The notes under the pieces: generated by a model
Told to the model about the DNA's origin: nothing
The model's database searches: none
Seen by the model: the letters and a program-made list of their open reading frames with translations, nothing else
From: a virus
Virus record (IMG/VR): IMGVR_UViG_3300030106_006793
Span: 13,139 to 35,040 of that record
Length of the DNA stretch: 21,902 bases
Direction: 5' to 3' (one strand)
Program-made: the position numbers and the translations under genes
Part shown: piece by piece, positions 2,720-18,586 of the stretch
Layout of the letters: every line of letters begins with the position of its first letter
How positions within the stretch are numbered: position 1 is the stretch's first letter

Positions 2720-3787
2720 ATGATTAATTTGGTAGCTCCAATAAACACGCTAGGGTATGGTGTAGCATCATACAATATTCTGCAGGCACTATGGAAAGAC
2801 CATAAGGATGTGACACTATATCCTATCGGACAACCAGAATTTACCAATGATGTGGTATCAGGGGCTCTTAACAACCAAGAGACTCTCTCCGATTTACCAA
2901 TTGTAAAAATCTGGCATCAGAATGAGCTACACATATTGCCAGAAGACTTACAAGGTGCTAAACCTTTGATAGGATATCCTATTTTCGAATTGGATAAGTT
3001 TAGAGATGATGAAATTGCTAGCATAGAACAATGTGACAAGATTTTTGTATGTTCTCACTGGGCTAAGAATGTTATCATCAATAACACTAAATTTGAAGAT
3101 GCTGATGTCCATGTGGTTCCTCTTGGGGTGGACACAGAAATCTTTAAACCAAATGGGCTTAAGGGTAGACCACAGACCATCTTTTTCAACTGTGGTAAAT
3201 GGGAGAAAAGAAAAGGCCATGATGTTATCTTAGAATGTTTTAATGTGGCCTTTTCGCACAATGACGATGTAGAATTGTGGATGATGTGCGATAATCCTTT
3301 TATTGGTGAGGGAAATAGTCAATGGAGAAATTTGTATCAGACTTCGCCATTGGGTCATAAGATAAAGATTATTCCCCGACAGGCAACACATCAGGATGTG
3401 TATAATATTATGTCTCAGGTTGACTGTGGGGTGTTCCCAGCAAGAGCTGAAGGTTGGAACCTTGAATTGTTGGAAGTGATGGCATGTGGGAAGCATGTCA
3501 TTTCTACTGATTATTCAGCCCATACAGAATTTTGTAATGGAGGTAATTGTAGATTAGTCTCAATAGAGAATATGGAAACGGCATATGATGGCGTATTCTT
3601 CAATGGTCAGGTGGGAAAATGGGCAGAGATATCTGATAATCAAAAGGATCAAATCATTACCCATATGAGAGATATCCACACCGCCAAGAGGGATGGAGAG
3701 CTTGCTATTAATCAGGCAGGTATCGATACAGCAAATCAATTTTCGTGGGCAAATTCTGTTAAGGAGTTAATCAATGGGTTGGTTTAA
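2720..3787 (+). CDS. Glycosyltransferase, GT-B fold (GT4-like)
   Basis: A 355-residue retaining glycosyltransferase of the GT1/GT4 superfamily. The N-terminal domain has the Gly-rich nucleotide-sugar-fold opening LGYGVAS (residues 11-17). VVPLGVDTEIF lies at 132-142, the typical linker to the C-terminal domain. A basic GKWEKRKGHD at 159-168 corresponds to the phosphate-binding loop. The E-x7-E donor-site motif is E244...E252 within EGWNLELLE. No membrane span or signal is seen, so it acts in the cytoplasm. Targets could be modified phage DNA bases, virion proteins or host surface glycans; the sequence does not tell. AGGA at 2710-2713 supports the start, and its end overlaps the next gene by 14 bases. 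Confidence 0.88.
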   Translation: MINLVAPINTLGYGVASYNILQALWKDHKDVTLYPIGQPEFTNDVVSGALNNQETLSDLPIVKIWHQNELHILPEDLQGAKPLIGYPIFELDKFRDDEIASIEQCDKIFVCSHWAKNVIINNTKFEDADVHVVPLGVDTEIFKPNGLKGRPQTIFFNCGKWEKRKGHDVILECFNVAFSHNDDVELWMMCDNPFIGEGNSQWRNLYQTSPLGHKIKIIPRQATHQDVYNIMSQVDCGVFPARAEGWNLELLEVMACGKHVISTDYSAHTEFCNGGNCRLVSIENMETAYDGVFFNGQVGKWAEISDNQKDQIITHMRDIHTAKRDGELAINQAGIDTANQFSWANSVKELINGLV

Positions 3788-4202
3788 TTCGCTGATAATT
3801 TCATCCGTTGTAACTATTTCCACTATTGTTGGGCTCAATAGCCTCAGTCCTCGATCGGACGGCGAGCCTTACGACTATGAGCTACATGTTTTTGGTGCGG
3901 AATCGTGTCCGCCATGCAGAAGAATGGATCGTGAAGTATGGCAAAGTTTAAGCGATCCCTTAAAATATAAAGATGAACAACATAAAACTATGGAGCTTTT
4001 TCTTAAGCAACATAATATCGAATTTCACAAACATATGTGGAACAAAGGAACCGGTCCTTTCAAGAAGTATAAAATCAACAAAGTGCCTACAATTTTATTG
4101 ATACAAGGCGAAGAAGTTATACTATCTACAAGAGGATACAAAAGCAAGGAGCAGGTAAAGAAACTAATCCAGACTAAAATTAAGGGGCAAAACAATGAGT
4201 AA
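3774..4202 (+). CDS. Membrane-anchored thioredoxin-like protein
   Basis: A 142-residue thioredoxin-fold protein with an N-terminal hydrophobic anchor or signal sequence (about residues 5-24). The active site is C45-P-P-C48 in AESCPPCRRMD, and the cis-proline loop is KVPTILL with P105. The CPPC dipeptide differs from the CGPC of cytosolic thioredoxin. With the anchor, it points to thiol-disulfide exchange on the outer face of the cytoplasmic membrane rather than to serving as the reductant of the phage RNR encoded further on. An insert of about 30 residues (60-90) separates the active site from the cis-Pro strand. AAGGAG at 3761-3766 lies inside the glycosyltransferase gene, and its own end overlaps the next gene by 8 bases. 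Confidence 0.8.
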   Translation: MGWFNSLIISSVVTISTIVGLNSLSPRSDGEPYDYELHVFGAESCPPCRRMDREVWQSLSDPLKYKDEQHKTMELFLKQHNIEFHKHMWNKGTGPFKKYKINKVPTILLIQGEEVILSTRGYKSKEQVKKLIQTKIKGQNNE

Positions 4203-4497: not shown

Positions 4498-4722
4498 ATG
4501 AACTTACTTCAAGCGGCTGAAAGTATTATTAGATCCAGAATGGACGAATATGGTTTTATAATGAATTCGTGTTTGCATGATCAAAAAACAGAAAATTTGG
4601 ATAATTTTTTAAAAGCTTTAGATAGTTATCAGAGAGCTTTAGCGGAATATGAGATTGTTCAGGGTCTAAAAAATCAAGTGCCAAATACAGACCCTGAAGA
4701 AGTGCTCGGCGAGGATACCTAA
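4498..4722 (+). CDS. Small unknown protein, first gene after sigma70 promoter
   Basis: A 74-residue acidic, mainly helical protein that I do not recognise. It has no membrane segment and no motif, and the Leu/Ala/Tyr pattern from residue 33 to 60 suggests one amphipathic helix. The purine-rich AGGAAGGAAG (4484-4493) is a strong ribosome site. Lying directly behind a consensus host promoter, it is probably expressed early and well, the usual setting for small host-takeover proteins; that is inference from position alone. Its stop overlaps the next ATG (TAATG). Confidence 0.65.
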   Translation: MNLLQAAESIIRSRMDEYGFIMNSCLHDQKTENLDNFLKALDSYQRALAEYEIVQGLKNQVPNTDPEEVLGEDT

Positions 4723-5105
4723 TGAAGATAAAGGTATCATTACTCTTTACACAGTATAACAGTATGTTAAAAATGACAGACTATAATCATATTGCTATCT
4801 TTTTTAATGATGATTTGCAATTTCCGTCTTGTTATCTGGGTAATAAAGATCCATATGAGGCTTTAGAAAATATATATTTTGAAAATTTCAGAGTTGATAA
4901 ATCATGGTTCTTGCCAAAGGTTAGCGACTTTAGAAAAACAGACCAACTTGATTATGAAATTGTATATACCTCAAGTAGACCTCTCATACCAAATATGAAT
5001 AAAGCGGGTCACTTTTACACCATGCATGAGATTCAATCAAAGAACATAGAAATAGATCCATATTATGAACAACTCATTCGATCCAACAACTTCCTCATCA
5101 TCTAA
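4722..5105 (+). CDS. Unknown 127-residue protein
   Basis: I cannot assign this protein. It begins with a hydrophobic beta-like stretch and contains many aromatic residues, with NHIAIFFNDD at 22-31 and ending in a hydrophobic FLII. It has the alternating pattern of a small alpha/beta domain and no membrane span. I looked for a Nudix box and found none. It starts on the stop of the preceding gene (GAGGA at 4711-4715 as ribosome site), and its last 41 bases overlap the start of the next gene. Part of the presumed early unit behind the 4425 promoter. Confidence 0.6.
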   Translation: MKIKVSLLFTQYNSMLKMTDYNHIAIFFNDDLQFPSCYLGNKDPYEALENIYFENFRVDKSWFLPKVSDFRKTDQLDYEIVYTSSRPLIPNMNKAGHFYTMHEIQSKNIEIDPYYEQLIRSNNFLII

Positions 5106-5415
5106 TGACGATGATGACTTGCATGTTGCACAACTAACAATTTACGCAGACGCTGATGGCTTGATATATTTTGCCTGTGATTGGAAAAATGAGCCGCTTG
5201 CTATTGAAAGCATGGCAGATATCTTCTATAAGATAGATCAGCAGGATTTAATAACAGAAATCCTAACAGATCTAAAAGAGCAATGTGTATTAGAAGATAA
5301 GGAGGAGATATTCTACCAGATGTTTGATATGATAAAACTCAGGATTACAAACAGTAAAACTGGAGAAAAATCAGATAACGTGGCAGTGCCTCCTAGTAAA
5401 GTAACTAGAATTTAA
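5065..5415 (+). CDS. Unknown acidic protein
   Basis: A 116-residue acidic protein. A Ser/Asp-rich N-terminal run (residues 4-18) leads into a compact part with beta-like HVAQLTIYADADGLIYFACDW and helical segments at about 45-95. It is not recognised as a named family. The start is uncertain: ATG 5065 makes a long 41-base overlap with the upstream gene and lacks a clear ribosome site. A TTG just before HVAQ would trim the disordered Ser/Asp leader, but it also has no good site. The folded part is the more likely conserved region. Confidence 0.6.
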   Translation: MNNSFDPTTSSSSNDDDDLHVAQLTIYADADGLIYFACDWKNEPLAIESMADIFYKIDQQDLITEILTDLKEQCVLEDKEEIFYQMFDMIKLRITNSKTGEKSDNVAVPPSKVTRI

Positions 5416-5436
5416 CCCTTATTTGGAGAAGATAGC

Positions 5437-6075
5437 ATGGCTACTCGAAAAACTATTGCGTGGGAGAGCTGGAATGCTAAACTTGAAGATCTCCAAGTGA
5501 GTCAGATAGAGGAGGTGGGCGAACAGGAAATGTCCTATACGGAAATCGAAAATGCCGCCTCTGCAGATATTGTTTATCCAGATTTGTTCGGTGGTCAACC
5601 AAAGATCATCCATACTCCTTTAGGTCCATATCCAGAAGACTCACTACTAAAACCATCAAATAGGTGGGATTGTTGGATAGGTCACACAAATTTTGATATC
5701 ACTACAGACATGGCTGAGAAATTAGAAACTGAAGTGAGTGGTGTTGAAGCTCTCAAAGTGATTGGTCGTTACTCTTTTTTCATTGGTATTGCTAAATTAT
5801 TTGATATTACGGAGGTGCGTAAAGATGTAGAAACTCTATTATGTGACTACACAGAACAGGAAGTGTTGGAGTCTAAGGAAGTTCGTATTACCGTTGACTT
5901 AGTAAAGGAGCAACTTGAAAGTAAAAAATATTGGTCCTTGTTCGTGTCTCCTGCGGGAGAAGTTGAGTACGTCGTTTCTGACGAGATGGATAAAGGATAT
6001 TTAGATGGTCTAAATAGCTTGTTAGAAATGAAGTCTTTGATTGGTGGTATTATTTTAAGGGGAAATGATGGATAA
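5437..6075 (+). CDS. Conserved phage protein of unknown function next to sigma factor
   Basis: A 212-residue acidic protein. The central block RWDCWIGHTNFDIT (residues 76-89) through GRYSFFIGIAKLFD (about 110-123) reads like a conserved core that I associate with large environmental phages, without a known function. No catalytic motif or membrane span is apparent. GGAG at 5425-5428 supports the start. It overlaps the sigma factor by 8-11 bases, so the two are likely co-translated. A co-regulator of the phage sigma factor is one possibility suggested by position only; a structural or assembly role is equally open. Confidence 0.7.
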   Translation: MATRKTIAWESWNAKLEDLQVSQIEEVGEQEMSYTEIENAASADIVYPDLFGGQPKIIHTPLGPYPEDSLLKPSNRWDCWIGHTNFDITTDMAEKLETEVSGVEALKVIGRYSFFIGIAKLFDITEVRKDVETLLCDYTEQEVLESKEVRITVDLVKEQLESKKYWSLFVSPAGEVEYVVSDEMDKGYLDGLNSLLEMKSLIGGIILRGNDG

Positions 6076-6541
6076 ATCTTTTGAGGATCTTCTGAAGGAT
6101 CCAAACATTGTAAATATTATGAATAAAGTTTCACTCAGGTATAATCGCCATTTTCACGCCGACGATATTGAATCAGCTCAAATGTTGACATTGTGGAAAT
6201 GCGTGGAGAATTTTGACGAATCTAAGGGTGCTAAGTTCACGACTTATCTACATAATCAATTGAATTATGCCTTTAAGAGCGAACTAAAAAAACAGAGACC
6301 TGACCATCATTTGGGAGACATCCACCCAGATGTTAAGCAGAAAGAAGGATACTCCACAGAGGTGCATGATTTGGTATCAGGATTACCTAATCATATCTCT
6401 CGTATCTTAGAACAAAGGTTTTTGTATAACATGACGATGGTTGAGATTGGTAGAGCTAATGGCTATAGCCGAGAAACAGCCCGTCGTCGCTTGAGAAATG
6501 CTATTAAAATATGCAAAAAAAAGCATCATGACTTGATTTGA
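6068..6541 (+). CDS. Phage RNA polymerase sigma factor (sigma70-family, minimal)
   Basis: About 157 residues with the two parts of a minimal sigma factor. A region-2-like segment at about residues 33-76 has DDIESAQMLTLWKCV, then ENFDESKGAKFTTYLHNQL, the usual F-D-x(3)-G-x-x-F-x-T-Y-x-x-x-x-I/L pattern. A region-4-like helix-turn-helix at about 110-150 has ILEQRF, MTMVEIGRANGYSRETARRRLRNA. Regions 1, 3 and the long linkers of host sigma70 are missing, as in phage late factors such as T4 gp55, which probably makes it the late-gene specificity factor. ATG 6068 is preferred over the adjacent ATG 6065 because AAGGGG (6057-6062) is then at workable spacing. Confidence 0.85.
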   Translation: MDKSFEDLLKDPNIVNIMNKVSLRYNRHFHADDIESAQMLTLWKCVENFDESKGAKFTTYLHNQLNYAFKSELKKQRPDHHLGDIHPDVKQKEGYSTEVHDLVSGLPNHISRILEQRFLYNMTMVEIGRANGYSRETARRRLRNAIKICKKKHHDLI

Positions 6542-6636: not shown

Positions 6637-7314
6637 ATGGCAGTTCCTAGTAGTAATTCACATTTAGTGAATACAGCTGGCGGTGCTTTCACCGCACCAA
6701 CCGAAGGTGGTACTATTCTTGGTAATACCACAACCAGTACTGAGAGGGTTACGAAAGCTTTGGCGTTAAAAGATAATGCCACTGTTTTTAGTGATGGCAC
6801 TAAACCTAAAGTGTTAGCAAATGGTTTAAGTGCAAATCAAAAAGTGCTTTCTGGTGGTACTTTTGCTTATGAAGAGGCCGGAAAATATGTTATTGCTTCT
6901 AGTACTGACACTCTTTCTGGTGTAGCTAATACCAACATTCTTATTACTGGACGTGGAAATACGAATAATTCTATTCACAAGTTCCGTCATTCGTTCGGTG
7001 CTAAGACTGTTACAGCATTGCGTGCTGGTAGATTTAGTTGGACTTCTACCAAGCGTACTGGTGCCGCCATCGGTGCTAGAATTAACTGGTTGCAAGTTGC
7101 TAGTGGTGGTATGGATACCGCGACAGCTCCAGCTGCTCTGAATGAGAATATGTTTGATATTAGTGATGGAGATGCTACTGATGTCGCGGCTGACTCAGCA
7201 GCAGAGCCAACACGAGCAGTTCCGGGTGAATTGGTCATGAAGGTAGACTTTGTCACTCTTGGTGTTTCAAGTGGTGGAGACTTCTTCGACTACAAGGCAA
7301 TTACAGGTATGTAA
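6637..7314 (+). CDS. Probable virion structural protein
   Basis: A 225-residue protein rich in Gly, Ala, Ser and Thr with few Cys and no enzymatic motif, the composition typical of abundant capsid decoration, tail or fibre proteins. Its beta-strand-like repeats of small residues, strong AAAGGAG ribosome site, own leader and own terminator indicate a monocistronic, highly expressed gene. The codons (many GGT, GCT, ACT) look more constrained than in neighbouring genes, also in line with high expression. The C-terminal part around ELVMKVDFVTLG resembles a jelly-roll or Ig-like strand pattern, but I would not name a fold. Candidate identities are head decoration, tail-tube or neck protein. Confidence 0.6.
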   Translation: MAVPSSNSHLVNTAGGAFTAPTEGGTILGNTTTSTERVTKALALKDNATVFSDGTKPKVLANGLSANQKVLSGGTFAYEEAGKYVIASSTDTLSGVANTNILITGRGNTNNSIHKFRHSFGAKTVTALRAGRFSWTSTKRTGAAIGARINWLQVASGGMDTATAPAALNENMFDISDGDATDVAADSAAEPTRAVPGELVMKVDFVTLGVSSGGDFFDYKAITGM

Positions 7315-7326
7315 AATTACCTCAGG

Positions 7327-7353
7327 GGGCGGCTCCATTTGGGGCCGTCCTTT
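7327..7353 (+). terminator. Rho-independent terminator
   Basis: GGGCGGCTCC (7327-7336) pairs with GGGGCCGTCC (7341-7350) around an ATTT loop, a 10-base-pair stem with two G-U pairs, extendable outward by an A-U and G-U pairs. It is followed by TTTGCTTTG. It lies 12 bases after the stop of the virion gene and is the GC-richest patch in the area. Confidence 0.85.
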
Positions 7354-7399
7354 GCTTTGTCTAAAATTTTTGTGAAAACTTTACCAAGGTTATTGATAA

Positions 7400-7419
7400 T
7401 AGTAATATCCCTATTACTA
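7400..7419. promoter_or_regulatory. Palindrome upstream of nrdA, operator candidate
   Basis: TAGTAATA (7400-7407), spacer TCCC, TATTACTA (7412-7419): a perfect 8-base inverted repeat ending 20 bases before the nrdA start. It overlaps or follows a weak promoter-like pair, TTGTGA (7370-7375) and GATAAT (7395-7400, 19-base spacing). It is too AT-rich and lacks a T run, so a repressor-binding site or an mRNA hairpin near the ribosome site is more likely than a terminator. Confidence 0.5.
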
Positions 7420-7439
7420 ATACAATTTGAAGGAAGATA

Positions 7440-9668
7440 ATGCAGATCTCAAAACGCAATGGACAATTGGAGGACTATGATGTTGAAAAGATTCATAAAG
7501 TTGTACAGTGGGCCACAGAGGATCTGAATGGTGTTTCTCTATCAGATATAGAAATGAATGCCAATCTATCTCTGTATGACGGAATACAGACCTCAGAAAT
7601 ACAACAAATTCTAATTAAATCCGCTAATGATTTAATTTCAGAATCAGCCCCTAATTATCAGTATGCCGCCGCCCGACTGCTGAATATGCAGCTAAGAAAA
7701 GATGTGTGGGGTTGTGGAACAAAGCCACCCAATTTCTATGACTTTATAGCGGTTAGAGTTGATAATGGTGTTTATGATCCAGAAATTCTGGAAAAGTGGA
7801 CAACCGAAGACTTAGAAAAGATCGAATCATATATCAATCATTCGAGGGATGATCTATTCACATATGCTGGACTACAGCAATTGATTGACAAGTATCTTGT
7901 TAAGAATAGATCTACAGGAGAAATATTCGAAACTCCGCAGTTTGCCTACATGCTTATTGCTATGTGTTTGTTTAACACGACTGATGAAGTCAAAGAAGCT
8001 TATGATACCTATTCTACATTTAAAATTAATTTGCCTACACCAATTATGGCTGGTGTTAGAACTACAATTAAGCAATTTGCTTCCTGTGTATTAGTTGATG
8101 TAGATGATGACCTTGATGGTATTTTCTCTTCGCTCCATGCTGTTGGTAAGTACACTGCTCGTCGTGCCGGTATCGGTTTGAACATGGGGCGTATCAGACC
8201 TATCAATGCTCCTATTAGAGGCGGTGAGGTTATCCACACAGGCATCATTCCATACCTAAAGAACTTTGAGTCGGCTGTTAAGTCAACGAGTCAGAACGGC
8301 CTCAGAGGAGGCTCAGCAACTGTGTATGTGCCTTTCTGGCATTATGAGATTGAGGATGTGCTTGTTCTAAAGAATAATGCGGGTACTGACGACAATCGTG
8401 TAAGGAAACTTGACTATTCAATTCAGTTTTGTAAACTGTTCTATGAGAGACTGGTTGCCAACGAAGATATTACCCTGTTTAATCCTAATGAATGTAAGGG
8501 TTTGTATGAAGCGTTTGGTGACAACGAAAAGTTTGAAGAACTATATAAGAAATATGAGAATGCTCGTAGTATCAAATTTAAGAAAAAGATTTCTGCTCGT
8601 AAGTTATCTGAAATTTTTGCGAGAGAGAGACTTGAAACTGGTCGTATTTATTCTATGAATCTGGATACAGCAAACGAGCATGGGTCATGGGATATTCCAG
8701 TAAAGATGTCTAATCTCTGCTGTGAAATTGTTCATCCTACAGTGCCTATCAAAGATATCAATGATTCAGAAGGGGAAATCGGGATCTGTATTCTATCCGC
8801 TCTGAATCTTCTTGAACTGAATTCAGATAATGACATCGCAAAGGCTTGTAAAGTTGCTGTAAAAACATTAGAATCAGTTATAGATTACCAAGATTACCCA
8901 GTCTTGGCTGGTGAAAACTTCACTAAAAACAGAAGGTCTCTTGGTATTGGTATTACAAACCTTGCAGGATTCTTCGCAAAGCACAAAGTATTCTACGGTG
9001 ATCCAGAAGCTCTTAATTTAATTCACGAGACAATGGAAAAGATCCAATGGAATCTGATTAATGCATCCTGTGATCTTGCTAAAGAATTAGGGCCGTGTGA
9101 AAAATTTGGAGATACCAAATATGCACAAGGCTTGTTGCCTATTGATTGGTACAAAAAGTCGGTTGACAAATTAGTTAAACCCAAATATACAATGGATTGG
9201 AAAGACCTAAGAAAAAGGATTAAAGAATATGGATTACGCCACTCTACTTTTTCTGCTATCATGCCCTGCGAGTCTTCCTCTGTTATACAGAACAGTACAA
9301 ATGGCATCGAGCCAGTTAGGAATCTTCTCTTATACAAAAAAGCAAAGAACGGAATCTTAAAACAATTGGTGCCGAATTATCATTCTCGTAAGAACTACTA
9401 CACTAAAGCTTGGGAGATGACGGATAATGAGGCTATGCTGAATACTGCTGCCGTAATTCAAAAATTTGTAGATATGAGTATGTCTACCAATCTATATTAC
9501 AATTATGCTCATTATGAAGACGGCAATATTCCGTTAAGTGTTTTAATTAAAGATCAAATATACGGATATAAATACGGTCTAAAAAATTTCTATTATGCTA
9601 ACACTCCAGATGGTGATGGCGATACTGAAAAAGATTTAGGTTGTGAAAGCGGAGCTTGTGCAATATGA
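7440..9668 (+). CDS. nrdA: Ribonucleotide reductase class Ia, large (alpha) subunit
   Basis: Full-length 742-residue catalytic subunit reducing ribonucleoside diphosphates to deoxy forms. An N-terminal ATP-cone (about residues 1-90) suggests allosteric activity control. The active-site set aligned by eye to E. coli NrdA is complete: redox pair C216 and C450, thiyl-radical C427 flanked by N425 and E429 in SNLCCEI, radical-relay Y718-Y719 in FYYANT, and the C-terminal C735/C740 of CESGAC for re-reduction by thioredoxin. It has no intein or intron. AAGGA at 7430-7434 gives the start, and the stop overlaps nrdB (ATGA). It supplies dNTPs for phage replication together with NrdB, and is likely regulated through the palindrome at 7400-7419. 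Confidence 0.97.
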   Translation: MQISKRNGQLEDYDVEKIHKVVQWATEDLNGVSLSDIEMNANLSLYDGIQTSEIQQILIKSANDLISESAPNYQYAAARLLNMQLRKDVWGCGTKPPNFYDFIAVRVDNGVYDPEILEKWTTEDLEKIESYINHSRDDLFTYAGLQQLIDKYLVKNRSTGEIFETPQFAYMLIAMCLFNTTDEVKEAYDTYSTFKINLPTPIMAGVRTTIKQFASCVLVDVDDDLDGIFSSLHAVGKYTARRAGIGLNMGRIRPINAPIRGGEVIHTGIIPYLKNFESAVKSTSQNGLRGGSATVYVPFWHYEIEDVLVLKNNAGTDDNRVRKLDYSIQFCKLFYERLVANEDITLFNPNECKGLYEAFGDNEKFEELYKKYENARSIKFKKKISARKLSEIFARERLETGRIYSMNLDTANEHGSWDIPVKMSNLCCEIVHPTVPIKDINDSEGEIGICILSALNLLELNSDNDIAKACKVAVKTLESVIDYQDYPVLAGENFTKNRRSLGIGITNLAGFFAKHKVFYGDPEALNLIHETMEKIQWNLINASCDLAKELGPCEKFGDTKYAQGLLPIDWYKKSVDKLVKPKYTMDWKDLRKRIKEYGLRHSTFSAIMPCESSSVIQNSTNGIEPVRNLLLYKKAKNGILKQLVPNYHSRKNYYTKAWEMTDNEAMLNTAAVIQKFVDMSMSTNLYYNYAHYEDGNIPLSVLIKDQIYGYKYGLKNFYYANTPDGDGDTEKDLGCESGACAI

Positions 9669-10729
9669 AAACGATCTTCAATACTAAAAACGTAGATGCA
9701 ATGAGTCAACCCTTATTCTTGGGTAAGGACTTAGGGGTACAAAGATTTGATATCATCAAGTATCCAGTATTTACTAATCTTGATAGTAAGATGATGGAGT
9801 TTTTTTGGCGACCACAAGAGGTGGAGCTGAAGAAAGACCGATCTGATTTCAAAGAAATGTCTGATAACGAGAAGTTTATTTTTACTTCTAATCTAAAGTA
9901 TCAGACTATGCTTGATAGTGTTATATGCCGTGGAGTACCTACGCTTCTGGAATATGTTTCTAATACTGAATTGGAAGCGTGTTTAATGACTTGGCAATTC
10001 TTTGAGAAGATTCATAGTCAGAGTTACTCCTATATCATTCAGAATGTTTACGCGGATTCTTCAGAAGTATTTGACGGTATTTATTCTGACAAAGAAATTA
10101 TGAAAAGGGCCGCTAGTGCTATTGAGGATTATAACAATCTTATGGGTATGGCGGACAATAAGACTATAGATTTAAGGAAACAAATCTATATGACTATTGT
10201 TAGTATCAATATTCTTGAAGCAGTAAGATTTTATGTGAGTTTTATATGCTCATTTGCTTTTGCGGAAAACAAGAAGATGGTAGGTAATGCCGATATCATC
10301 AAGCTTATTAAACGAGACGAAGCACTACATCTATCTAATACGCAGGAAATTCTGAGAATCCTTCACAAAGAAGAAAGTGAAGGTTTTGTGAAAGTGGCAG
10401 CACAATGCCAAGATGCTGCTATAGAGATGTTTGACAGAGCTGCCCAAGAAGAAAAAGACTGGGCATCATATCTATTTAAAGATGGATCAATTATTGGTCT
10501 CAACGAAACTGTATTACATCAATATATTGACTGGCTATGTATGTCCCGTCGTAAGTCAATTGGATTACCTTATGAAAAGGTTGGTAAGAATCCTGTTGCT
10601 GGATGGACAGATCCTTGGATGCAAAGTGAGTCTGTTCAGGTCGCACCACAAGAACATGAAATTACCAGCTATAAAATTGGTGCCAGTAAAAATGATTTAG
10701 AAGATATGGATTTTGGAGATCTATTATGA
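9665..10729 (+). CDS. nrdB: Ribonucleotide reductase class Ia, small (beta) subunit
   Basis: 354-residue diiron subunit. Metal ligands are D84, E114, H117, E185, E219 and H222, in the usual settings (LKYQTMLDS, FEKIHSQSY, LEAVRF, RDEALH). The radical-bearing tyrosine is present as Y121, so this is a tyrosyl-radical class Ia protein rather than a Tyr-less class Ic form. The C-terminal tail EDMDFGDLL would dock on NrdA. The frame is open from TTG 9656, but ATG 9665 forms an ATGA overlap with the nrdA stop and is the better start; GGAG at 9651-9654 is the ribosome site. The end overlaps the DUF1501 gene in the same ATGA way. Confidence 0.96.
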   Translation: MKTIFNTKNVDAMSQPLFLGKDLGVQRFDIIKYPVFTNLDSKMMEFFWRPQEVELKKDRSDFKEMSDNEKFIFTSNLKYQTMLDSVICRGVPTLLEYVSNTELEACLMTWQFFEKIHSQSYSYIIQNVYADSSEVFDGIYSDKEIMKRAASAIEDYNNLMGMADNKTIDLRKQIYMTIVSINILEAVRFYVSFICSFAFAENKKMVGNADIIKLIKRDEALHLSNTQEILRILHKEESEGFVKVAAQCQDAAIEMFDRAAQEEKDWASYLFKDGSIIGLNETVLHQYIDWLCMSRRKSIGLPYEKVGKNPVAGWTDPWMQSESVQVAPQEHEITSYKIGASKNDLEDMDFGDLL

Positions 10730-12015
10730 GAACCAGAAGAAATTTTTTAAAGGGTGGGACTGCTTCATTATTTCTACCCATGCATTCATATGCGTCCGAA
10801 GTGGCTGAAGCTTCTGACAAATCTCTTATCATCGTATTCTTAAAGGGTGGACCCAGTACGATTGATATGTTTGATCTGAAACCAGATGCTCCTGCTGAAT
10901 ATCGCGGAGACTTTAATCCAATTTCAACATGTGTACCAGATATACATATCTCAGAGCATCTACCTCTACTGGCACAACAGCAGGATAAATTTTCTATAGT
11001 TAGATCTATGTCACATAGTGACTCTAATCATGGATCAGGCGATCATTATATGCTGACTGGCTACAAGGCGAGTCCATCATTCCAAGCTAAACAAATGCCG
11101 AATAATGAAAATCCGTCTTTTGGCTCGATTATTTCTCACGAAAAGGGTGGCGTTGGATCTGTGCCGCCGTATATCTGCTTACCAAATATGCACAAAAGTG
11201 GTGGGTCCTCTTACTTAGGACCAATGCACGCCCCGTTTATCATCGATGCAGACCCTAATTCTCCATCATTTGCCGTGCCAAACCTTGTGCCACCAGCAAT
11301 TCTATCTGACGATAGAATATCTATCAGGGAAAAATTAAGGCGTCAACTGTCTAGATTTGAAGGAACTCAAGAAGTTTCACCTAAAGTGAATCGTAAAGCA
11401 AATAGTTTTGATACATTTAGAGAGTCAGCTCAGATTTTAATGTTGTCTAAAGAAGCCAAGGAAGCATTTGACATTGAAAAAGAACCAGCTAAAATCAGAG
11501 ATCAATATGGTAGAACTACATTAGGTCAAAGTTGTTTAATGGCCCGTCGCTTAGTAGAGGCCGGAGTTAGATGTGTGACTATCCAGCATACTGATTGGGA
11601 TACGCATGATGAAAATTTCCGACTATTGAAAGATGAGTTACTACCACCACTAGATTCTGCTGTCTCTACTCTGTTTGCAGATTTGGAAGATCGTGGACTA
11701 TCAGATAAAACATTGGTATTAGTCACTGGAGAATTTGGTAGAACTCCAAAAATTGATGGTAATGCTGGGGGACGTGGACATTTTCCAGCAGCTTTTAGTT
11801 TGTTGTTAAGTGGCTGTGGGCTTAATTCAGGTATGTGTGTTGGAGAAACTGATAGAGTTGCAATGTCGTGCGTTGATGGACGTTATACACCAGAAGATTT
11901 AACACAGACTATATTAAAGTCTTTAGATGTCGATACTCACAAAGAATTTTACTCACCTCAAGGTAGACCGTTCATGATGGTGAATGGTGGTAAAATTATT
12001 AAAGAACTTTTTTAG
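10726..12015 (+). CDS. DUF1501 protein with Tat signal (alkaline-phosphatase-superfamily-like)
   Basis: A full-length 429-residue DUF1501 protein. The N-terminus has a clean twin-arginine export motif, T3-R-R-N-F-L-K9, then a short hydrophobic stretch and a likely cleavage near residues 22-25. Family motifs are in order: FLKGGPSTIDMFDLKP (38-53), ADKF-type QDKFSIVRSM (86-95), NHGSGDHYMLTG (101-112), WDTH (291-294), GEFGRTP (335-341) and GRGHFPAA (349-356). DUF1501 proteins are distant relatives of alkaline phosphatases and sulfatases, abundant in Planctomycetes and otherwise uncharacterised. GGAG at 10715-10718 and the ATGA overlap with nrdB tie its synthesis to the RNR operon. It is probably exported to the periplasm or cell surface during infection. 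The reaction is unknown; host-derived origin is likely. Confidence 0.93.
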   Translation: MRTRRNFLKGGTASLFLPMHSYASEVAEASDKSLIIVFLKGGPSTIDMFDLKPDAPAEYRGDFNPISTCVPDIHISEHLPLLAQQQDKFSIVRSMSHSDSNHGSGDHYMLTGYKASPSFQAKQMPNNENPSFGSIISHEKGGVGSVPPYICLPNMHKSGGSSYLGPMHAPFIIDADPNSPSFAVPNLVPPAILSDDRISIREKLRRQLSRFEGTQEVSPKVNRKANSFDTFRESAQILMLSKEAKEAFDIEKEPAKIRDQYGRTTLGQSCLMARRLVEAGVRCVTIQHTDWDTHDENFRLLKDELLPPLDSAVSTLFADLEDRGLSDKTLVLVTGEFGRTPKIDGNAGGRGHFPAAFSLLLSGCGLNSGMCVGETDRVAMSCVDGRYTPEDLTQTILKSLDVDTHKEFYSPQGRPFMMVNGGKIIKELF

Positions 12016-12026
12016 GAAACATTACT

Positions 12027-12614
12027 ATGTCACAACCAGATAACAGGGAAATTCTAGCACGCATGAGGCAATTTAATGAACAGTATCAGAATGTCGAACC
12101 TCCCACGATCCCGCTCAGTGCTTGTATTTCTGGCACGGCACTTGATGAAACGTCTGTAGATCTCGCGGGTCAAATTTTGGGTAGTTATTCCTCTCAAATC
12201 CCTGTAGTCCTACTAAATGACAAGGCTAAAATGCCTACAAAAGCCCATACATCAGATGCTGGGTGGGATTTATATGCAGCGAACTCGACTATAATTTCTG
12301 AGCATCAGCGTAAAACAATAGAAACTGGTATCGCGTTAGAAATCCCAGACGGATATGTTGGTTTAATTTGGCCTCGTTCTGGGTTATCTGTGAAGCAAGG
12401 TATCGATGTATTGGCTGGTGTAGTGGATTCTGGTTATAGGGGTGAAATTAAAGTTTGCCTATATAATACCTCTACTCTACCTGTTGAAATAGAGGCTGGA
12501 GACAGAATTGCCCAAATTTTAATTCAACCAGTCTCACAAATGGAAATGATAGCAGTGGATACTTTATCTGATACCGAGCGTGGAGAGGGTGGATTTGGTT
12601 CTTCTGGAACCTAA
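12027..12614 (+). CDS. dut: dUTP diphosphatase with N-terminal extension
   Basis: Trimeric-type dUTPase, hydrolysing dUTP to dUMP and pyrophosphate. All five motifs are present: I HTSDAGWDLYA (74-84), II PRSGLS (116-121), III GVVDSGYRGEI with catalytic D134 and uracil-gating Y137, IV GDRIAQI (158-164), V RGEGGFGSSG (185-194). The usual enzyme is near 145-150 residues. This one is 195 because of an N-terminal extension of about 55 residues (helical 1-24, then Pro/Ser-rich) with no recognised domain. AGGA at 12014-12017 supports ATG 12027, so the extension appears to be translated. It works with RNR to feed dTTP synthesis and keep uracil out of phage DNA. Confidence 0.95.
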   Translation: MSQPDNREILARMRQFNEQYQNVEPPTIPLSACISGTALDETSVDLAGQILGSYSSQIPVVLLNDKAKMPTKAHTSDAGWDLYAANSTIISEHQRKTIETGIALEIPDGYVGLIWPRSGLSVKQGIDVLAGVVDSGYRGEIKVCLYNTSTLPVEIEAGDRIAQILIQPVSQMEMIAVDTLSDTERGEGGFGSSGT

Positions 12615-12658: not shown

Positions 12659-14041
12659 ATGAGTTTTACTGATCCAAATGCTAGAATATTCTATGCTTGC
12701 CAAGCTGTATTGGTTGTTGAGAGAAATACAGCTGAGGTCACCGCTCCTAATCATGCCGATTCTAAGTGGTTATCTGGTGTTCAATCTATAGGTGTGAGCA
12801 GGGTTACCCCTTCTGAAAGTCTTCCCGATATTGGCAGATTTCAGCAGCAGTTCAATTACTATGGACAGCAGGAAATTGAGATCACTATTGAGCGTGTGAT
12901 CGATCAAGATGCTGACTTGTTCTATCATGTAAACCCCAGTAATTACACTGATGACGAGTTCCCATATAAAAAGTCTCATCTTTTGTATGAGGACAATCTC
13001 AATGTTAGTGGGTTTGTGGATACAGCTAACCCCACAGCTACAAAATCCTTAAAAAATTATGACATTAGTCTGATATATACTTCCGACAAATTCTCAAGAG
13101 TGGGTAGTGACAGATATAATTCCTCTGGGGGTGGTGATGCTGACAGGAATGCACTGCTGCTCAATGTGTATAGAAATTGCCTACTTATAAATGTCGCTTA
13201 CAATATTTCCATTGATGGTTCTATCACCGAAACTCTGACCCTTATCACAAGATATAGTGAGAAGATTACAAGTCTAGATTTACAAGACTTTAGCAATGCT
13301 CAATTACCAGCAGCCGACAGAAGTGGAGGACTTCCTTCGGCGGAATCTGGCAATACTGTTAAGTGGCATGATTTTAAATTTAGAGAACCTGGACTAAGTA
13401 GGTATAGTGGTTCTAATCTAAGGAGACAAAACTCAGACTCTACATATATTTCCATCTTGCCAGATGAAGTAGAGTTAATGTTTGATTTGTCTAATAAGTT
13501 GGACGGTATAAAAATTACAGGACTCCAGAGTATTCAAATAAATCTTGGCATAAATTATACAGATTTTACTGATGTGGGTAGATGGCCCGGATCACACACC
13601 GCTGGCACAGGTTTTAAAGGTCAAAAGATTCAAAATCTATGGAGGGTTGTAGACCTGCCGGTCGATGTGGCGGTGACTTTTGAGGGTATTGCTCGGCAGG
13701 ATTTCCCGCAACAGATAAACAATGATGGTACATTTTTTACTCCGGCTACTAACTTTAATACCGCATTGGGCAAACCCGCACCGACCACCAATGCTGGCGG
13801 AGATGTGACCGAATGGAACAAGACAGATAGACCCATTCTAATTACCGCACTCAAGCAGAATGGTTCATATTTTATATGGGATCTTGGTGAGCATAATTAT
13901 GTGACCGTCATCAACACTGATGGTGGCAATACTGAAGGTCAAAACTTAACAACATCAATATCATACGAAAACAACTTTAGTGAGGCGGTATTCGTCAAGC
14001 ATACATCTGTCCAGAACTTGGTTTACGATGGTCCTTATTAG
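12659..14041 (+). CDS. Virion structural protein, tail-tube-like
   Basis: A 460-residue protein without enzymatic motifs, rich in Asn, Ser, Thr, Asp and beta-forming residues. Its N-terminal part (about residues 38-90: SGVQSIGVSRVTPSES, then QEIEITIERV and DLFYHV) has the layout I associate with phage tail-tube-like proteins: a first hairpin around a ligand-free VQSIG turn, then an EITIERV strand. The middle repeats the same strand logic (INVAYNISIDGSITETLTL at about 176-194), and the C-terminal half is looped. The assignment is by pattern and is not certain; a baseplate or fibre component is the alternative. It has its own leader with a possible late promoter. A short 8-base gap separates it from phoH. 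Confidence 0.6.
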   Translation: MSFTDPNARIFYACQAVLVVERNTAEVTAPNHADSKWLSGVQSIGVSRVTPSESLPDIGRFQQQFNYYGQQEIEITIERVIDQDADLFYHVNPSNYTDDEFPYKKSHLLYEDNLNVSGFVDTANPTATKSLKNYDISLIYTSDKFSRVGSDRYNSSGGGDADRNALLLNVYRNCLLINVAYNISIDGSITETLTLITRYSEKITSLDLQDFSNAQLPAADRSGGLPSAESGNTVKWHDFKFREPGLSRYSGSNLRRQNSDSTYISILPDEVELMFDLSNKLDGIKITGLQSIQINLGINYTDFTDVGRWPGSHTAGTGFKGQKIQNLWRVVDLPVDVAVTFEGIARQDFPQQINNDGTFFTPATNFNTALGKPAPTTNAGGDVTEWNKTDRPILITALKQNGSYFIWDLGEHNYVTVINTDGGNTEGQNLTTSISYENNFSEAVFVKHTSVQNLVYDGPY

Positions 14042-14049
14042 GAGGTAAA

Positions 14050-14721
14050 ATGTCCAAGAGGCGAACAGCTAAGAAAAATACTCAACCCAAACCATTACGA
14101 AAAAAATTAACCCCAAAAACAGAAAATCAGCGGGATTATATATTGCAAATGGCTGAATCTGATATCACTATTTGCACTGGACCAGCAGGAACTGGTAAGA
14201 CGGCAGTGGCTGTGGCATTGGCCTGTGAATACATACTTGACAAAAAAATAGAAAAGATTATAATCACACGACCAGTAGTAGAAGTGGGAACCAGAGGTCT
14301 CGGTTATTTGCCGGGATCTTTAAATGAAAAAATGCAACCTTGGGTTGTACCATTGTTAGAAGAAATGAATGCATATTTATCAAGAGAAACTGTGAATTCA
14401 ATGCGTGCATCTAACACTATAGAAATCGCCCCTTTAGAATATATGCGTGGTAGAAGTTTTCATGATAGCTTTATGATCTTGGACGAGGCACAGAATTGTA
14501 CCTTTGAACAGATTAAAATGTTTTTAACCAGAATTGGTTATAACTCTAAAGCGGTAATTAATGGTGATATTGATCAGAGCGATCTGATTCAAAATCATAG
14601 TGCGTTGGGGGAATGTGTAGACAGGCTGGAAGGTGTGAAAGGTTTATCAGTATGCGAGCTGACCGAAGAAGATATCCTGAGAAATGGAATTATCCGTAGA
14701 ATTCTTTCAAGGTTAAAATAA
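14050..14721 (+). CDS. phoH: PhoH-like NTPase
   Basis: 223-residue P-loop protein. Walker A is G44-PAGTGK-T51, Walker B is FMILDEAQN with D145-E146, and VINGDIDQSDL at 169-179 is the sensor region typical of PhoH. The C-terminal EEDILRNGIIRRIL matches the family's end. The N-terminal 20 residues are basic and Lys/Arg-rich. PhoH proteins are common in marine phages; the family is thought to act in RNA metabolism as an ATPase/helicase, and its link to phosphate starvation in phages is not established. Missing relative to cellular PhoH are KH or PIN domains, so this is the stand-alone core. GGAGG at 14041-14045 is the strong ribosome site. Confidence 0.93.
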   Translation: MSKRRTAKKNTQPKPLRKKLTPKTENQRDYILQMAESDITICTGPAGTGKTAVAVALACEYILDKKIEKIIITRPVVEVGTRGLGYLPGSLNEKMQPWVVPLLEEMNAYLSRETVNSMRASNTIEIAPLEYMRGRSFHDSFMILDEAQNCTFEQIKMFLTRIGYNSKAVINGDIDQSDLIQNHSALGECVDRLEGVKGLSVCELTEEDILRNGIIRRILSRLK

Positions 14722-17099: not shown

Positions 17100-17529
17100 T
17101 GCCGCTCAATACGTGGCCGAAATGGTCTGTTTGAGAAAGGCTGAAAAGGACAATAAAGGGAGTTTGGAATATAAGTTTTGGAATAAATCTAAAGATAAGG
17201 AGTATCAAACCCAAGTGCGTGCAGCACATAAGTTAGTCAAGAAATACGGTGAGGATGCTCTATTAAAATATATCAACGGCCCTAGCGGTAGAAATGTTTA
17301 TTCGCTAGGGTTTTTACATAAGTCTGGTAGATATGTTTTGATACTGCGATTCGTAAACACGGGTGTTGCCAAGGTCGCAAAACTTTTGGAGAAAGAATCA
17401 AAAAAAGAAAAGAAGGTAATCGACTCCACTGTTGAGATCGAGCACAAACCAAGAAAGTCATTCAGAAATCAGTCCACATTATTCTCTAAGATTAGAAATA
17501 TAGAAGATGATACAAGCAAAGAAACCTGA
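17038..17529 (+). CDS. Conserved phage protein upstream of recombinase
   Basis: 163 residues if ATG 17038 is used. The conserved-looking part starts at SAAQYVAEMVCLRKAE (about residue 21) and includes KFWN, VRAAHKLVKKYGEDALLKYI (60-79) and a basic C-terminus. This protein type is found beside uvsX-like genes in T4-like environmental phages; function unknown. TTG 17092 would give a protein beginning right at the conserved block, but a GGGG (17085-17088) is too close to be a good ribosome site, so the start remains open. Its stop overlaps the recombinase gene by 23 bases. Confidence 0.65.
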   Translation: MTQKKDNTKKLKSISTGNLCSAAQYVAEMVCLRKAEKDNKGSLEYKFWNKSKDKEYQTQVRAAHKLVKKYGEDALLKYINGPSGRNVYSLGFLHKSGRYVLILRFVNTGVAKVAKLLEKESKKEKKVIDSTVEIEHKPRKSFRNQSTLFSKIRNIEDDTSKET

Positions 17530-18586
17530 ATATATTGCAAAGATTATTAAAGATTACGGGAAGATCATTACTACTGGCACACAGGTACTTGAGAGCCAAA
17601 AGAACAAAAAGGTCATTTCTGTAAGTCCTGCTATTGACATTGCTCTCGGAGGTGGTATACTGGAGGGTAGTTGGCTCACTCTTACCGGCGATCCTAAGAG
17701 CGGTAAAACCACTACAGCTATGCAGATTGCTGCCAATTGTCAAAAGGAAGGCAGACCAGTTATCTATTTAGATGTAGAGGGACGACTGAAAGGAATGAAC
17801 TTTGAGGTTGCGGATCTTGATCCAGCGAAGATGGAGATTATCCAACCAGAAGATGAGCCATTGCCCGCTGAAACATTTCTTGATGTCGCCCATAAGCTTA
17901 TGAGTAATGTAGATTATGATGGAGCTGTCCTAATTATTGACTCCATTTCATCATTACTGCCTGCTAAAGAGTTAGATGGAGATTTCACACCGGGGCGTGC
18001 GGGTCTCCCTAAGATCCTCTCAATCTTTACTAAAAAAATGGGACAACTGTTGCCCAGACAAAATGGTTTGGTAATTGCTATCACTCACTATATTGCCAAT
18101 ACTGGTGGTTTCGGTGCTTCTAAAATGGCTGATGGCGGAAACAAAATCCAGTACCAAGCGGATACAAGAATGGAAATTCGTGGTGGGGGTGAAAAAAGCC
18201 CCGCCATCTCTCCTTGGGAAGACAATAGTAAGAAGAGAATTGGACAGGCGGTCAATTGGAGAATCATTTGTTCATCGATGGGTGCTCCCGGTGGCCAAGT
18301 GCAAAGTTGGATTCGATACGGTCACGGTATTGACAAAACTCAAGAAGTCCTTATACTTGCACAGGACTTGGGTATGATTAATAAAGCTGGTGCTTGGTGT
18401 AGTTGCCCCTTTATGTTAGAGTGTAAAGATGTAGCAAAAGAAATCAAGCCAGACTTAGATATTGACGATGACGATGCTGTGATGAAAGCTTTCAAGTTTC
18501 AAGGCCAAGACAAACTGTACAATTTCCTGAACAGTAATCCCAAGTTGGTATCTATACTTGAACAAAAAATAAAGGCTATGCTATGA
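17507..18586 (+). CDS. uvsX: RecA/UvsX-like recombinase
   Basis: 359-residue RecA-superfamily strand-exchange ATPase. Walker A is G61-DPKSGK-T68, catalytic Glu is E91 in IYLDVEG, and Walker B is AVLIIDS with D145. Further core elements are KELDGDFTPGRAGL (154-167, the L1 loop region) and AITHYIANTGGFGAS with a Gly-rich L2-like loop. It lacks the long C-terminal domain of bacterial RecA and is closest in layout to T4-like UvsX, so it probably drives phage recombination-dependent replication and repair. The start has no strong ribosome site and overlaps the upstream gene, pointing to coupling. The end overlaps the nuclease start (ATGA). Orthology to uvsX is inferred. Confidence 0.88.
   Translation: MIQAKKPEYIAKIIKDYGKIITTGTQVLESQKNKKVISVSPAIDIALGGGILEGSWLTLTGDPKSGKTTTAMQIAANCQKEGRPVIYLDVEGRLKGMNFEVADLDPAKMEIIQPEDEPLPAETFLDVAHKLMSNVDYDGAVLIIDSISSLLPAKELDGDFTPGRAGLPKILSIFTKKMGQLLPRQNGLVIAITHYIANTGGFGASKMADGGNKIQYQADTRMEIRGGGEKSPAISPWEDNSKKRIGQAVNWRIICSSMGAPGGQVQSWIRYGHGIDKTQEVLILAQDLGMINKAGAWCSCPFMLECKDVAKEIKPDLDIDDDDAVMKAFKFQGQDKLYNFLNSNPKLVSILEQKIKAML

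Follow-up and report, generated by a model that had tools for sequence, protein, structure and literature searches.

A DUF1501 gene with a Tat-type signal in the nrdB cargo slot of a likely planctomycete phage

The stretch of DNA analysed here (the window, 21,902 nucleotides) covers positions 13139-35040 of the 35,040-base virus record IMGVR_UViG_3300030106_006793 (35 kb; record label G000) and carries a complete DUF1501 gene. Our favoured reading, which we hold to be probable, is that this gene is auxiliary cargo of host origin in a tailed marine phage, one that probably infects planctomycetes, and that its product is an exported, metallo-hydrolase-like protein that would alter the surface of the host. 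Host-derived cargo genes are known in phages as a kind; the wide DUF1501 family found here in uncultivated phages is apparently undescribed.

The DUF1501 gene and its place behind nrdB

The gene order of the window is nrdA, nrdB, DUF1501, dut, a gene for a 460-aa protein and phoH, and the features needed below are the following.

7440..9668, + strand: nrdA, large subunit of class I ribonucleotide reductase (Pfam)
9656..10729, + strand: nrdB, small subunit of ribonucleotide reductase (PF00268), whose 3' end serves as docking site for cargo (Pfam; slot survey)
10715..10718, + strand: GGAG ribosome-binding site within the 3' end of nrdB, 7 nt 5' of the DUF1501 ATG (sequence)
10726..10729, + strand: ATGA overlap of the DUF1501 start with the nrdB stop (sequence)
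10726..12015, + strand: DUF1501 gene, 429 aa, with a Tat-type signal and a predicted AP/NPP-fold domain (ORF, Pfam, predicted model, fold comparison)
10726..10800, + strand: twin-arginine signal region, MRTRRNFLKGGTASLFLPMHSYASE, kept across viral homologues (sequence)
12027..12614, + strand: dut, dUTPase (PF00692; Pfam)
12659..14041, + strand: 460-aa protein with no assigned function, which many relatives also have between nrdB and phoH (Pfam/PHROG searches, slot survey)
14050..14721, + strand: phoH-like gene closing the variable nrdB-phoH interval (Pfam; slot survey)
17507..18586, + strand: RecA/UvsX-like recombinase of the phage replication module (profile searches)

Regarding the protein, the reading frame opens with ATG and is complete; in the Pfam search, PF07394 (DUF1501) matched it with an E of 8.1e-98 and 328.6 bits, against a curated cut-off of 27 bits, with residues 32-429 aligned to positions 2-390 of the 390 in the profile. 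The whole profile is therefore covered and the motifs GGPSTIDMFD, WDTH, GEFGRTP and GRGHFP are all present, which confirms the complete DUF1501 protein claimed in an earlier note on this DNA. The twin-arginine signal named in that note is also there: the N-terminus reads MRTRRNFLKGG, with TRRNFLK at residues 3-9 and a hydrophobic stretch behind it. A motif-based rule, consisting of the strict motif plus a hydrophobic stretch at the N-terminus, predicted a Tat-like signal in at least 121 of the 132 DUF1501 ORFs from viruses and in 1 of the 1,012 remaining ORFs on these contigs, with several of the misses due solely to the use of the longest ORF; by this prediction, the Tat-type N-terminus is specific to the viral DUF1501 ORFs among the ORFs of their contigs. 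No NCBIfam or PHROG model matched the window protein, nor did any PADLOC anti-phage defence model at an E of 0.01.

As for the junction, the nrdB stop (TGA, 10727-10729) sits inside the ATGA that opens the DUF1501 gene, and dut lies downstream, both as first described. What does not stand is the idea that this coupling ties DUF1501 functionally to ribonucleotide reductase. In a survey of 79 loci with related nrdB genes (77 for the nrdB 3' end), GGAG occurs at the nrdB 3' end in 70 of 77, and an ATGA-type overlap joins nrdB to the next gene, whichever that is, in most of the loci; since such overlaps are a general feature of this nrdB 3' end, the one with DUF1501 was rejected as a sign of partnership, and the nrdB 3' end is a docking site, or cargo slot, that bears on timing and not on function. 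The nrdB-phoH interval is variable, and holds MazG, ThyX, dut, sugar-nucleotide enzymes, secreted proteases, a second Tat-type protein or DUF1501, the last in 6 of the 79 loci. The slot of one relative (L294) has a 149-aa Tat-signal protein without a known domain (8642-9091) and a secreted trypsin-like protease (7065-7685).

The nrdB slot takes DUF1501 of two types with a likeness of about 35%. One is that of the window (L222, L226); the other starts at the same ATGA in L223, L224 and L225, and L021 has both in tandem. The window and L021 share 79% identity in DUF1501 and 71% in nrdB, although nrdB is the slower-evolving protein among closer relatives, which points to exchange of DUF1501 between phages.

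Close homologues of the window protein (79-88% aa identity) occur in other, independent contigs of viruses. Those of L002 and L003 share its ATGA start behind nrdB, while in L021 the window-type homologue follows a second DUF1501 gene in the slot. Because these relatives recur in independent contigs at the same junction, the locus is not a product of chance. On the 157,369-base contig (L003, G002), where nrdA-nrdB-DUF1501 is conserved, the large terminase subunit (2.9e-22), a tape-measure protein and a weak match to the major head protein are encoded, and DUF1501 is placed with the replication genes, at a distance from the structural ones. The phage context assumed at the outset is borne out by this relative, and the contrary reading, a piece of bacterial chromosome, has a negligible probability: DUF1501 and DUF1559 (see below) are indeed host-type genes, but the synteny with a contig that has terminase, head and tape-measure genes refutes it, the record has no PSD1, and there are many related viral contigs.

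The same loci showed further genes. An A-type iron-sulfur carrier (HesB/IscA), absent from the window, lies between DUF1501 and dut in L003 (11856-12188) and L021 (9845-10177); a cytosine-C5 methyltransferase, with an ORF that overlaps the nrdA end, and a possible restriction enzyme of 208 aa lie between nrdA and nrdB in L021 (3889-5423); a small secreted protein comes after DUF1501 in L002, L003 and L021. The window itself has a sigma-70-like factor of phage with regions 2 and 4 (6065-6541), a PAP2-superfamily phosphatase gene (938-1696), of which ten DUF1501 loci have one too, and a thioredoxin-like protein with an N-terminal membrane or signal stretch (3774-4202), with similar genes near DUF1501 in 12 loci. 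Upstream on the same record (L010:12032-12478), there is a second dUTPase-like ORF, shorter and diverged, besides the full dut of the window.

Planctomycete ancestry and spread among viruses

The nearest named cellular proteins are from marine Planctomycetaceae, namely Fuerstiella sp. ALOHA_ZT_14 (L023, 56%) and NAT155 (52%); plasmids gave distant DUF1501 matches only, at 34% or less. In a careful tree, for which the closest cellular genes were picked from the 150 family members of one such planctomycete genome, the phage clade (100/100) and the Fuerstiella pair are sisters at 100/99, inside the DUF1501 of Planctomycetaceae. The planctomycete link suggested earlier, for which a tree had been proposed, is thus upheld: judged from this phylogeny, the window gene derives from a cellular planctomycete DUF1501 with a Fuerstiella-type sister.

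The host is likely, on indirect grounds, to belong to the Planctomycetota as well, because a pseudopilin-like protein of DUF1559 (PF07596, 2.2e-51), a family apparently restricted to Planctomycetes (PMC10632474), is encoded on the record of the window itself, upstream of it (L010, record positions 4594-5622), with a prepilin-type N_methyl motif. DUF1559 is present in 7 of 40 DUF1501-bearing virus records, compared with 0 of 14 control genomes, and in none of the GenBank phages. The phage RecA profile found nothing at 1e-60 in 343 genomes of the planctomycete phylum, a result that says nothing on the host. A literature search on likely planctomycete phages such as these uncultivated ones found nothing in the library covered.

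In cells, the nearest host genes come after a PSCyt2-PSD1 (DUF1549/DUF1553) gene, and two marine planctomycete genomes have 118 and 175 DUF1501 matches. Cellular DUF1501 (PF07394; the Tat-exported planctomycete proteins, such as that of Fuerstiella) and the window protein have the same full-length domain, Tat-type N-terminus, invariant residues and motif order; the window protein and viral copies differ in being on phage genomes, in lacking the PSCyt2-PSD1 neighbour, in their tandem paralogues, and in having GRGHF in place of the usual GRDHW. Of 34 virus records, 33 lack PSD1, the usual neighbour in cells; because only one record has it, most viral DUF1501 proteins would work alone or with host partners. 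The sole exception is G163 (L111, L113), where PSD1 (DUF1553; G163:C1:139021-141708) adjoins DUF1501 on a phage-type contig, as if the whole host operon had been taken.

DUF1501 matched none of 50,697 GenBank phage records, in line with the earlier statement that it is not a usual nucleotide-metabolism gene of phages. That part of the claim stands, but the gene is no lone oddity. In one scan, a broad DUF1501 alignment picked out 193 stretches coding for DUF1501 in viral contigs; 31 of the 80 loci read carry two to four paralogues, often in overlapping tandem, and seven records have four copies each in whole-record counts, the maximum per phage contig. The carriers belong to at least two unlike types of large phage, one that has RecA, DnaB, primase, nrd and phoH in common with the window, and another of up to about 240 kb with other genes in common. 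A quick tree (LG+G4, with long branches and unsure deep joins) contains several clades with viral sequences, of which two, with 29 and 20 rows, are purely viral; its supported branches force at least four host-virus label changes. Two loci (L104, L114) have unlike surroundings, may be cellular or proviral, and support no conclusion.

As for deposited cases, A0A6J5M742 (BFVD), from an uncultured Caudovirales phage, is already a DUF1501 protein in a phage, by annotation only, with 14% identity to the window protein in a structural match; the "DUF1501" of Pseudomonas phage ZC03 (PMC5418858) was rejected as a precedent, being a weak 61-aa CDD match. The literature searched, with subscription papers outside its scope, contained no study of viral DUF1501, of its Tat-type signal or arrays, or of its link to planctomycete phages.

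Whether the gene has a selected role at all can be judged from its substitutions: the window clade of viral relatives has a dN/dS of about 0.1, and because of this value the clade is taken to be under purifying selection. A host gene recombined into a tolerant slot, with no selected role, would suit the tolerance of the nrdB-phoH interval and the few nrdB loci (only 6 of 79) with DUF1501 there, but purifying selection across the clade largely refutes this reading, the Tat motif is kept, and there have been several acquisitions and expansions; we regard a passive passenger as very improbable.

Predicted fold and putative active site

The AlphaFold2 model of the window protein, built with 51 homologues, had a pLDDT of 84.8 and a pTM of 0.86, with low confidence in the signal region. 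Its comparison with the PDB gave NPP/ENPP phosphodiesterases (Z 20.4), the phosphatase PafA (20.2) and sulfatases (about 18), and 490 of the 1000 chains compared reached a Z of at least 8; the protein is therefore predicted to have the alkaline-phosphatase/NPP fold. The likeness to NPPs and to PafA (PDB 5egh, 2gsn, 5too) extends over 250-286 residues at a Z of about 20, whereas the sequence identity is 12-15%. For the sulfatases, sequence profiles tie the C-terminal half of DUF1501 to LtaS2 and to Fuerstiella sulfatases, and the profile match with sulfatases (PF00884) over that half has an hhalign E of 6e-6; Pfam gave no sulfatase match for the window protein, whose 429 residues do not contain the C-x-P-S-R formylglycine motif of these enzymes. 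Sequence-profile comparison of DUF1501 with planctomycete NPP homologues found no link.

Eight residues, H102, W291, D292, H294, E336, R339, R350 and H352, do not vary among the 132 viral sequences nor, E336 apart (54/56), among 56 cellular ones, and the position of D47 is D or E in the viral and cellular alignment; the window protein has D47 and the other eight. The earlier note had proposed checking by structure prediction whether the metal residues of the alkaline-phosphatase fold are kept, and the answer is mixed: the fold and the invariant acidic and histidine residues are found, but the D-[HN] ligand pair, which usually follows the central strand in this superfamily, is not, and E336-F337 takes its place also in the sequence-profile alignments (F in 131 of 132 viral copies, E-F across the family). 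The superfamily has a Ser/Thr/Cys nucleophile at the start of the helix after the second strand; in the predicted model, the invariant H102 opens helix 102-111, and no nucleophile was identified, unlike in NPPs and PafA. The simplest reading of these modelled residues is a metal site with an altered set of ligands. With E-F in place of the usual pair and no assigned Ser/Thr/Cys nucleophile, the protein might be a binder instead of an enzyme. The literature gave no activity and no solved structure for any DUF1501 protein.

An exported protein with the alkaline-phosphatase fold is, as modelled, very probable, and an active hydrolase somewhat more probable than not. A hydrolase might serve scavenging, by stripping phosphate, sulfate or sugar off surface-bound polymers while infection is under way and feeding the nucleotide pools of nrdAB and dut; the AP/NPP/sulfatase-type fold and the nucleotide-metabolism neighbours (nrdAB, dut, MazG, ThyX) suit it. 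This is nevertheless unlikely: the slot also takes proteases and sugar-nucleotide genes, so that the junction is not specific to DUF1501, the ligand pair is altered, and another DUF1501 gene for bulk catabolism seems redundant in a likely host that already has more than 100. The opposite proposal, a non-catalytic mimic that replaces one of the many host DUF1501 proteins beside their PSCyt2/PSD1 neighbours as a decoy with dominant-negative effect, we consider rather improbable. The PSCyt2-PSD1 gene next to the nearest host genes and its lack in most phage loci favour it, but the putative active-site residues, which a pure decoy would not need, are fully kept in viral copies, a physical DUF1501-PSD1 complex is not established, and the G163 record has both genes.

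Proposed role

The mechanism we envisage for the favoured reading, an exported protein that acts on the host surface, would proceed as follows. DUF1501 would be translated alongside the nucleotide-metabolism genes, from the ribosome-binding site built into nrdB; the protein would fold in the cytoplasm, probably with metal, and be exported in its folded form through the host Tat system, to act on an ester-linked polymer of the envelope or surface, either within the periplasm or at the cell surface. We infer the substrate and the benefit alike, and the likeliest benefit would be a changed surface of the infected cell, for instance one that excludes competing phages. Surface alteration is favoured because non-orthologous variants are swapped in the slot, up to four are stacked, and these phages carry other exported host-type proteins (DUF1559, thioredoxin-like and small secreted proteins); as the benefit, this alteration or superinfection exclusion is put forward tentatively, at less than even chances.

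A different use of export would be late weakening of the envelope, in which the protein cleaves or loosens the planctomycete surface layer and aids the release of progeny. It agrees with the predicted export and envelope targeting, and with the small secreted basic proteins and exported proteases near the genes of relatives; yet the gene lies among replication genes, far from the structural ones on the 157-kb relative, and several diverged copies are unexpected for a lysis gene, making this improbable. The favoured surface-acting protein resembles phage auxiliary (moron) genes, where related phages have cargo of host origin in one fixed slot, and differs from them in its predicted Tat export to the envelope, instead of cytoplasmic metabolism, and in its multi-copy arrays.

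A broader and more speculative proposal, which as a whole we think rather unlikely to hold, is that planctomycete phages systematically encode the largest exported families of their hosts (arrays with as many as four DUF1501 genes, pseudopilin-like DUF1559 proteins and, once, PSD1), swap variants in fixed cargo slots, and use the host Tat system to re-dress the surface of the infected cell and exclude competing phages.

In conclusion, DUF1501 is among the most multiplied protein families of planctomycetes, yet it has no known function; its presence in several large-phage lineages, selected, export-signalled and in multiple copies, suggests that it matters at the interface between host and phage. 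The phage genes offer small, single-gene systems for finding what DUF1501 does, and the survey marks a large number of uncultivated phages as likely to infect planctomycetes. If phage DUF1501 does re-dress the cell surface, this would be the first functional handle on a family with more than 100 copies per planctomycete genome.
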